From: Brachyspira intermedia PWS/A
GTDB taxonomy: Bacteria; Spirochaetota; Brachyspiria; Brachyspirales; Brachyspiraceae
Reading direction: 5' to 3'
Assembly (NCBI RefSeq): GCF_000223215.1
Contig: NC_017243.1
Coordinates: 1,984,001 to 2,048,000 of the forward strand
Length of the DNA stretch: 64,000 bases
The notes under the pieces: model-generated
The model's database searches: none
Told to the model about the DNA's origin: nothing
The model's input: the letters and a program-made list of their open reading frames with translations, nothing else
Shown here: piece after piece, positions 15,066 to 17,810 of the stretch
How positions within the stretch are numbered: position 1 is the stretch's first letter
How the letters are laid out: every line of letters starts with the position of its first letter
Position numbers and translations under genes: made by a program

Positions 15066-16469
15066 TCAATAATTTAAATTTATAATTGTATTTTTTAATA
15101 CTTCTTCAGCTCTTTTTATAAACTCATCTTGATTATACAAAAGCAAGTCTATATATCCGCATAGTATTCCAAAAGCACTGCCTAACACAATACCTATTTC
15201 TTTACCACTTCCTTTCTCACCCATCATGCTTTCAAGCTCATCTGAAATATTATTTCTTTCATCAAAGAGTTTTTGATTTATATTTTCATCATTAAAATCA
15301 TTATCTTTATTATCTGAAAATACATAAGTCAAATATACAGCCCTTGCTCCCATTTTGGAAATATTAACAATAGTATCTATATTGTAATTAACATAATCAT
15401 CTATAAGTTCCATATAGCATGTATTACCCATAAATATATCTTCTCTGAAAAAATTATCTGTAGGCTTACACTCATAAACCGTATATCTATTTATAGGGTC
15501 TAGAATAATTTCCTTATTTTTATTTTTTAGAGTGTCCATTATAAAATCATAAAGTTTTGTAAGCTCTATCATACCATCAAGTTTTTTATCACTTTTTTCA
15601 ACATTTCCTAATAAATATAATTTAAATATATTCTCACCTACTGCATGTTCAAGCATTATATAAAAAGCATTGTATGCATAATCTTCTTCTAGTTCATTTA
15701 ATTTTTTATTATAGAATTTCAAATTAAAGAAATTGGTATCTTCATCATATTCAGGATATACCAAAATTTCTTTAAAGCTTAAATCTTTATTATACATTCT
15801 AAAATTAGAGTTAGCTATATCTTGTTTTTGCATATAAGGAAAAAATTTCCATTTACTTTTTAATTTCTCAGGCATAGCAGCAACTATTCTAGGTGTAAAA
15901 TAAAATAAATATTCTTTGCCCTCTACAGTAAATGTAAACTCATAATTACCACCGAAAACAAACTGCAAATTGTTTGATATTAAAGCTACACCATTAGAAA
16001 TAAATTCAATTATTTCATCTGATGACATATCAGATTTTTGCTCTATAAAATCAGATATAACTTTTTCATTTTCCTCAAACCATTTCCAAAACCTATTAAC
16101 TCTCTCTTCAAAATTTATTCCATCATCTTTATCTTCAGAACATAGCATATAAAAATTATAAGCATCTGTATCATCATTATTTAAATCATAAGCCTTTTTA
16201 AAATACATTTCTGCATTTTCTCTATCGCCTTTATAATAATAAGCATAACCTACTCTATAATTCCATAAAGCATCATCAATACCTTCTTCTCTTATATACA
16301 TTAAATTGTTCAATGCTTCATCATACTTTTCTATATTATTATAAGCTCTGGCAAGCAAACTAAAAAGTTCTGCACTTCTTTCATCTTCAGGAATTTCGAT
16401 TATAATATCAATAATTTTTTCATGTTCATCATTTTCATGTAATTGATTTATTTCTTCTATTATGTTCAT
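15066..16469 (-). CDS. TPR-domain protein with an uncharacterised C-terminal domain
   Basis: 467 aa, cytosolic (no signal peptide or membrane span). Residues about 1-115 form three TPR-like helical repeats (for example LARAYNNIEKYDEALNNLMY and VGYAYYYKGDRENAEMYFKK). The rest, about 125-467, is a mixed alpha/beta region rich in acidic and aromatic residues that I do not recognise. The Gly-rich stretch GKEIGIVLGSAFGILCGYID is near the C-terminus. Single gene with its own terminator. I give no function beyond a scaffold role for the TPR part. Confidence 0.75.
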   Translation of the reverse strand: MNIIEEINQLHENDEHEKIIDIIIEIPEDERSAELFSLLARAYNNIEKYDEALNNLMYIREEGIDDALWNYRVGYAYYYKGDRENAEMYFKKAYDLNNDDTDAYNFYMLCSEDKDDGINFEERVNRFWKWFEENEKVISDFIEQKSDMSSDEIIEFISNGVALISNNLQFVFGGNYEFTFTVEGKEYLFYFTPRIVAAMPEKLKSKWKFFPYMQKQDIANSNFRMYNKDLSFKEILVYPEYDEDTNFFNLKFYNKKLNELEEDYAYNAFYIMLEHAVGENIFKLYLLGNVEKSDKKLDGMIELTKLYDFIMDTLKNKNKEIILDPINRYTVYECKPTDNFFREDIFMGNTCYMELIDDYVNYNIDTIVNISKMGARAVYLTYVFSDNKDNDFNDENINQKLFDERNNISDELESMMGEKGSGKEIGIVLGSAFGILCGYIDLLLYNQDEFIKRAEEVLKNTIINLNY

Positions 16470-16536: not shown

Positions 16537-16812
16537 TTATAATTTTTCTATTTCTTTAATACTTAATCCGGTATTCTCGCTTATAAATTTTGCATCCAAA
16601 CCTGACTTTTTTAAACTTTTAGCTATAGATATTGCCTTATTTTTTTCTCCTTCTTCTCTGCCTTTCATTCTTTCTTCACTTAATGCTAATATATCAAAAT
16701 AATTCTTCTCATATTCTGCATAATTTTCAAATAAATCTTTTGTATCTACAAATTTATTATATTCATCATAAACTTCTTTCATGATAGGATTTTTTTTAAC
16801 TAGCATTTTCAT
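16537..16812 (-). CDS. Possible internal-start C-terminal Rpn product (RpnS-like)
   Basis: Nested in frame within the Rpn nuclease gene. The coding strand carries GGAGGAAATTATG: an ideal Shine-Dalgarno (plus-strand 16818-16822) five bases before ATG 16812-16810. Initiation there gives 91 aa (residues 201-291 of the long form), leaving out the nuclease core and keeping the C-terminal helical tail. Its length and position resemble the intragenic antitoxin forms described for E. coli Rpn proteins. Whether it is made is inference. Confidence 0.45.
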   Translation of the reverse strand: MKMLVKKNPIMKEVYDEYNKFVDTKDLFENYAEYEKNYFDILALSEERMKGREEGEKNKAISIAKSLKKSGLDAKFISENTGLSIKEIEKL

Positions 16813-17412
16813 AATTTCCTCCATTTTTTCTCTTTTTTCTTTAATTGTTAAAAAACAAAACCAAGCATTTAATTCATCTGTAAGACTTGAAGTACTAGAT
16901 AAATATTTAGGAAGTTCTAGGAAGTGCATTTCCAAATGATTAGTAAGTATATGATTAGTTTCTAATTCTTTTATTACATAACAACTATGTTCTTTATCAA
17001 TATCCTTTAACAAATTGAAATCCAAAATATTAATAACTATAACCTGTTTTAAATCATTATATTTTTCATTATTTCTCAAATTAGAAACATAGCCTTTAGC
17101 CCAATAATATAAACTTCTGTAAACAAATGATTGATTTCCTACTCTCTGTATTTCTACTAAAACAGTTTCGCCGCTTTTTGTAACTGCTCTTACATCTACT
17201 ATTGACTGTTTATCATTTACAGTTTCTTTTAAATTAAAAGTATTAAGAACTTTTACTTCTTCAAATATCTCTTGATTATAGTCAGCCCTTACAGAATTAA
17301 TTAAATTAAGTAAAATATGTTCATGTCCTTCTTTAGCAAACATATAACGCATAAAATAATCATTCAAAGGATTAAAATATTTTATTTGTTTGGTTTTTAA
17401 TTTATTTTCCAT
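16537..17412 (-). CDS. Rpn family PD-(D/E)XK nuclease (recombination-promoting nuclease / putative transposase)
   Basis: 291 aa. It opens with FNPLNDYFMRYMFAKEGHEH, typical of the family, followed by the nuclease core: IVDVRAVTKSGETVLVEIQ (about 70-88), the D...ExQ pattern of PD-(D/E)XK enzymes. The C-terminal tail GREEGEKNKAISIAKSLKK and then a short helix-turn-helix-like end (SENTGLSIKEIEKL) is also characteristic. Known: E. coli Rpn proteins are DNA endonucleases that promote recombination and affect phage growth, and they encode a shorter C-terminal protein from an internal start. Here a GGAGG with 5-base spacing precedes an in-frame ATG at 16812. The neighbour 50 bp upstream is an Imm51-like gene. 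Confidence 0.88.
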   Translation of the reverse strand: MENKLKTKQIKYFNPLNDYFMRYMFAKEGHEHILLNLINSVRADYNQEIFEEVKVLNTFNLKETVNDKQSIVDVRAVTKSGETVLVEIQRVGNQSFVYRSLYYWAKGYVSNLRNNEKYNDLKQVIVINILDFNLLKDIDKEHSCYVIKELETNHILTNHLEMHFLELPKYLSSTSSLTDELNAWFCFLTIKEKREKMEEIMKMLVKKNPIMKEVYDEYNKFVDTKDLFENYAEYEKNYFDILALSEERMKGREEGEKNKAISIAKSLKKSGLDAKFISENTGLSIKEIEKL

Positions 17413-17462
17413 AAGTATATTATACTGAAAATTATTAAGTTTGTCAAAAAACTATATATTAA

Positions 17463-17810
17463 TTAATCAAGTTCAGCCCTTGAAAATAAATCTCTTATCA
17501 ATTTATCGTCTTCACATGCCTCTTTAAATAATAAAGCAAATTTCTTTAATGCTTCAATATCGCTGCTGTAAGCACAGAACATACTTGCCTCAGAATCAAA
17601 ATCAATAACATCTCTTAATTCCGGTACTTTTTCATCTAAAAACACCAAAGCTAAAGACTGCCAATCATAACCGCTGCCTTCAAATCCTTCATCTTCTCTT
17701 TCTTCAAATATTTCTGCTTTATATTCGCCAACATTAAGACAAAGAGAAGCAGTATTTTCATGCTCTACAAAAAAGAAAGGTTTTATTTTTTCATCAAAAT
17801 TATTGTTCAT
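17463..17810 (-). CDS. Imm51-like immunity family protein
   Basis: 115 aa, small acidic cytosolic protein. The pattern YDWQSLALVFLDEKVPEL then VIDFDSEASMFCAYSS and a helical end resembles the immunity protein 51 family, which is found next to polymorphic toxins. No toxin gene is recognisable nearby; the only neighbour is the Rpn-type nuclease 50 bp downstream. So it may be an orphan immunity gene. Family assignment is from pattern memory only. Confidence 0.65.
   Translation of the reverse strand: MNNNFDEKIKPFFFVEHENTASLCLNVGEYKAEIFEEREDEGFEGSGYDWQSLALVFLDEKVPELRDVIDFDSEASMFCAYSSDIEALKKFALLFKEACEDDKLIRDLFSRAELD

Follow-up and report, generated by a model that had tools for sequence, protein, structure and literature searches.

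A conserved internal ribosome-binding site and start codon in a Brachyspira Rpn-family nuclease gene predict a nuclease and its probable inhibitor from one reading frame

We analysed an Rpn-family nuclease gene in the window, a 64,000-nucleotide stretch of the genome of Brachyspira intermedia PWS/A, and found that it probably encodes two proteins in one frame (probability about 0.8): an RpnL-like DNA nuclease (L) and an RpnS-like protein (S) that would start at codon 201 and likely restrain L. The sequence signature of RpnLS is present: ahead of the C-terminal domain, the frame contains a ribosome-binding site and a start codon. In our sequence comparisons, it is the conservation of this site, rather than the odds of a single site, that makes the internal start convincing. 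The features discussed below are as follows.

16537..17412 (-): full-length Rpn-family nuclease (RpnL-like), 291 aa, PDDEXK_2, from PF12784 and TIGR01784 matches
17146..17196 (-): PD-(D/E)XK active-site residues D73 ... E87-x-Q89, intact, invariant in 48 homologues
17419..17447 (-): promoter TTGACA-N17-TATAAT (12/12 match), ending 6 nt before the RpnL ATG, with the predicted transcription start on the ATG
16818..16822 (-): internal Shine-Dalgarno (SD) GGAGG, 5 nt before the ATG, from the sequence and synonymous-codon tests
16537..16812 (-): predicted internal product (RpnS-like), 91 aa, from the in-frame ATG at codon 201; ATG and SD conserved, residues 251-288 matching RpnA-S
16630..16674 (-): four-residue repeat segment (EERMKGREEGEKNKA) in a long helix, repeat number varying between orthologues
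16540..16629 (-): C-terminal tail cassette, residues 262-291, common to L and S, from identity correlations and DNA-level swaps

The open reading frame at 16537-17412(-) has 291 codons, and its product matched PF12784 (PDDEXK_2) at residues 15-241 (E=4.6e-47) and TIGR01784 (Rpn family) at residues 17-291 (E=6e-36). With a PD-(D/E)XK Rpn-type nuclease domain and an intact active site, the predicted protein can be assigned to RpnL (COG5464). A Foldseek search with the full-length model gave weak matches only, including the nucleases EndoMS, EcoT38I and EcoO109I, and PADLOC had no model matching either the window protein or E. coli RpnA. An Imm51-family immunity protein gene (PF15595, E=2e-36) lies directly upstream of the nuclease at 17463-17810(-), and an Imm51-family gene also adjoins the nuclease copy of B. 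alvinipulli (L062). Downstream, 15066-16469(-) encodes a TPR-containing protein, which likewise adjoins the L062 and L063 copies.

The original prediction placed GGAGG-N5-ATG in frame at codon 201 with 91 residues left, and we confirmed both the coordinates (ATG at 16810-16812) and the count. It also described the small protein as lacking the nuclease core, which agrees with the position of D73, E87 and Q89, all upstream of codon 201. In the structure model, the internal start comes after the PD-(D/E)XK core, where the helical C-terminal part begins. The 3' end of the organism's own 16S rRNA carries the standard anti-SD CCTCC. We found no conserved SD-start at the position corresponding to that of E. 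coli (codons 244-253), and the mRNA structure around the internal start was unremarkable (z=0.55). We also searched for an internal promoter for the short frame. The only nearby match (16851-16823) reached 9/12 and would put the transcription start downstream of the internal SD, and the region matched no more than shuffles did, so this candidate was rejected.

To set a genomic background, 251 genes of the same genome were sampled (464 kb). Any strict SD preceded 19 of their 2345 internal in-frame ATGs (0.8%), and GGAGG at the same spacing preceded only 4, two of which belong to Rpn genes. We then examined a codon alignment of 135 homologous Brachyspira ORFs, in which the window gene is present twice (Q, L001). 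A strict SD with a start was found at column 201 in 128 of 134 rows and at no other column. When synonymous codons were re-drawn from genome usage, the mean at column 201 was 21.2 and the maximum 29. The site is far beyond what chance would give, in line with the earlier claim that a perfect five-base SD at ideal spacing is unlikely to be accidental. Redundancy does not explain the conservation, because the site was kept in 36/37 clusters at 90% L identity (null mean 4.3, maximum 10 of 500) and in 11/12 clusters at 70% identity (null 1.6). Paralogues lacking the internal SD and ATG were looked for, but practically all keep the site, and the gene-within-gene reading stands.

The ATG itself occurs at column 201 in 129 of the 134 rows, and an SD-like run stands just before it in all 129. 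Six rows fall outside the 128: one has a slightly weaker SD at the same ATG, and the other five have their ATG ten codons later, at 211, preceded by AAGGAGG, AAGGAGC or TAGGAGG. Codon usage points in the same direction. Of the 97 glutamates at codon 198, 96 are encoded by GAG, whose share at other glutamate columns has a median of 15% and a maximum of 45%. At column 197, 94% of the synonymously free codons end in G while the amino acid varies (M, L, K, R, E, V). Subfamilies with other peptides (FFKGEDM, NGGESM) encode the SD bases in another register.

Beyond the genus, we collected 78 homologous ORFs from genomes of other spirochaetes, Bacillota, Deltaproteobacteria, KSB1, Chitinivibrionales, Planctomycetes and Helicobacteraceae. 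Residues 200-209 held 51 strict SD-starts, compared with 0-7 in the other ten-residue bins. An SD-start between residues 195 and 222 was found in 43 of 56 clusters, against a mean of 11.4 and a maximum of 21 when synonymous codons were shuffled within each ORF; control windows of similar width held 0-1. As a positive control, E. coli K-12 rpnA was scanned in a similar way and gave exactly one site, at codon 244 (49 aa), which is the published internal start (PMC10327210). One spirochaete genome carries several tandem Rpn copies that differ in repeat number and tail (L215).

To characterize the short protein, we compared it with E. coli RpnA-S (PDB 7th0). Residues 251-288 matched this protein by phmmer (E=0.026), and a Foldseek search with the S model placed 7th0 at rank 2, with 45% identity and an rmsd of 0.9 over 38 residues (E=1.2). 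Foldseek E-values for the S model are no lower than about 1, so the evidence for a common fold is the rank, the identity and the rmsd; an E-value above 1 is expectable for a protein that is short and helical. Sequence and model together thus point to an RpnS-type helical tail at the C-terminus of the window protein. The lengths of S in Brachyspira step by four, in the series 87/91/95/99/103/107/111 and 88/92/96/100/104/108/112, because the number of four-residue repeats varies, and variation by fours is seen among close orthologues too. Such repeats of variable number, in the first helix, have been described as a hallmark of RpnS. Brachyspira S also has an extra helical segment (residues 201-248), mostly within the stretch matched by PF12784.

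The tail is a cassette that paralogues exchange independently of the nuclease domain. When genes were compared in pairs, identity in the nuclease region correlated at 0.97 with identity in residues 201-248 but at only 0.12 with identity in residues 262-291; at the DNA level, the values were 0.94 and 0.16. Although these correlations use pairs that are not independent of one another, discordance of both kinds was seen directly. In some gene pairs the nuclease DNA is 93-97% identical, yet the tails are 68-74% identical, and genes that are 56-59% identical can have tails that are 94-99% identical.

Broken and partial copies were also found. The B. alvinipulli copy, which has the same neighbours, carries a frameshift at codon ~196, just 5' of the SD, and its SD, ATG and S frame are intact. 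Locus L170 has an S frame with homology from residue 197 on and no nuclease part before it, and L173, L176, L177, L187 and L017 resemble it. These standalone S frames retain the SD. Copies with an intact S frame form a biased set, because they were selected by their S frames. Among loci found with the full-length query, disabling events numbered 12 in the part unique to L and 3 in the part encoding S, an excess in the expected direction that is not significant against the ratio of about 2:1 given by length. Two broken copies in the same genome (L006, L012) have stops inside S as well. In another paralogue of this genome (L004, 1501-2340), a single base change (GAG198 to TAG), nine bases before the internal ATG, ends L and damages the SD together.

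We next considered how L itself might be translated. Of 131 genus homologues, 118 have a promoter of at least 10/12 placed 4-8 nt upstream of an early ATG; among 276 sampled genes, 7 do, and two of these 7 are Rpn genes. The distance from the -10 box to the ATG is exactly 6 nt in 106 of the 126 homologues having a promoter of at least 10/12. With the usual sigma-70 spacing, the transcript would start at the ATG, and the full-length mRNA is predicted to be leaderless; the S start would then have the only SD of this mRNA. Some other spirochaete relatives show a weaker form of this layout, and several Bacillota relatives have a normal SD before the long start. In Leptospira, transcripts without a leader are frequent (PMC5243855), and E. 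coli regulates the translation of such mRNAs during stress (PMC8138138).

Three other explanations for the internal site were weighed. The GGAGG could be a by-product of amino-acid constraint, encoded by chance in a peptide M-E-E-x-M; one gene alone could look so, and M-E does yield part of the motif. However, residues 197 and 199 vary and the bases do not, and the synonymous-codon null was exceeded about six-fold, so the codon tests refute this idea and leave it almost no probability. It is also improbable that the SD is kept for ribosome pausing at the boundary between the nuclease core and the C-terminal helices instead of for initiation. The location of the site in the model, after the PD-(D/E)XK core and at the beginning of the helical part, would suit a pause. 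But pausing needs no start codon, yet each of the 129 rows that carry the SD at column 201 carries the ATG too, the rows without that ATG have an SD and ATG pair of their own at 211, SD and start shift together outside the genus, and the standalone S frames still carry the SD.

The remaining explanation accepts that the short protein is made, and sees in it, instead of an antitoxin, a protein that serves the nuclease as structural partner or as activator, in the manner of Cas11d within cas10d. For this reading, residues 201-248 co-vary tightly with the nuclease region (r=0.97), as an obligate subunit might; the antitoxin role proposed for this branch comes from homology, and S here has roughly twice the length of its E. 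coli counterpart. Nevertheless, E. coli RpnS, which has the same tail fold, blocks both the cleavage and the toxicity of RpnL (PMC10327210), and we regard a partner or activator role as unlikely. From the homology to this protein, we infer that S acts as an antitoxin.

The closest known system is E. coli RpnA-E with its RpnL/RpnS products (Zhong et al. 2023, PMC10327210; PDB 7th0). For the plasmid-encoded RpnP2 of E. coli, phage protection was reported (PMC10327210). As in E. coli, the gene for a PD-(D/E)XK nuclease has an internal start in its own frame for a C-terminal protein, the compact tail is the same, the four-residue repeats vary in number, and the short frame is at times separate from the long one. 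The systems differ in several respects. E. coli RpnA belongs to PF04754 and the Brachyspira protein to PF12784; RpnA-S has 49 aa whereas Brachyspira S has 91 aa, and the Brachyspira internal start lies ~45 codons further upstream. All RpnS proteins of PMC10327210 have their repeats 8-20 residues after the Met, a spacing that Brachyspira S departs from, with a median onset of 51 residues (range 50-55, 128 rows). The long start of E. coli rpnA follows an SD-like AAGGAA, whereas the Brachyspira long start looks leaderless. In C. difficile Rpn, a short protein is expressed from an internal start and is lost when the ribosome site is mutated (PMC10327210), which resembles what is predicted here for Brachyspira. 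Cas10d/Cas11d likewise yields a small C-terminal protein by internal initiation in frame, but that protein is a required subunit and not an inhibitor, and we claim no sequence relation.

Taken together, these comparisons suggest how a nuclease and its antitoxin could operate from one gene. The full-length product would be a PD-(D/E)XK DNA nuclease, and S a 91-residue helical protein made from the strong internal SD with the same oligomerisation tail as L. Most likely, S pairs with L through the shared tail and the preceding segment and holds the nuclease inactive, as with E. coli RpnA. L would probably be translated at a low level, since the predicted transcript begins at the L ATG and offers L no SD, and S efficiently. 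The nuclease would be freed if the L:S ratio shifted or the L-S contact changed. The sequences themselves show the conserved internal start, the homologous tail, the variable repeats, the promoter layout and the tail exchange; from them we infer the translation of S, the inhibition of L via the common tail, the leaderlessness of L, and the release of the nuclease on stress or infection. We further propose, tentatively, that the dose may be set by two initiation modes on one mRNA, a leaderless toxin and an SD-led antitoxin, together with a recombining tail that re-specifies both at once. If the dual-initiation part is true, any condition favouring leaderless initiation would release the toxin. 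Because the tail lies in the shared frame, tail-swapping recombination would change toxin and antitoxin together.

Internal starts are usually argued gene by gene, and the codon tests reveal one that a whole nuclease family has kept in several phyla. The RpnL/RpnS design is thus no enterobacterial peculiarity, and our sequence data support extending the one-gene toxin-antitoxin design of E. coli to another protein family and to several phyla. The leaderless-toxin layout would offer a concrete, testable answer to how the antitoxin stays in excess, and the shared, exchangeable tail suggests a route by which toxin and antitoxin may diversify and yet stay matched.
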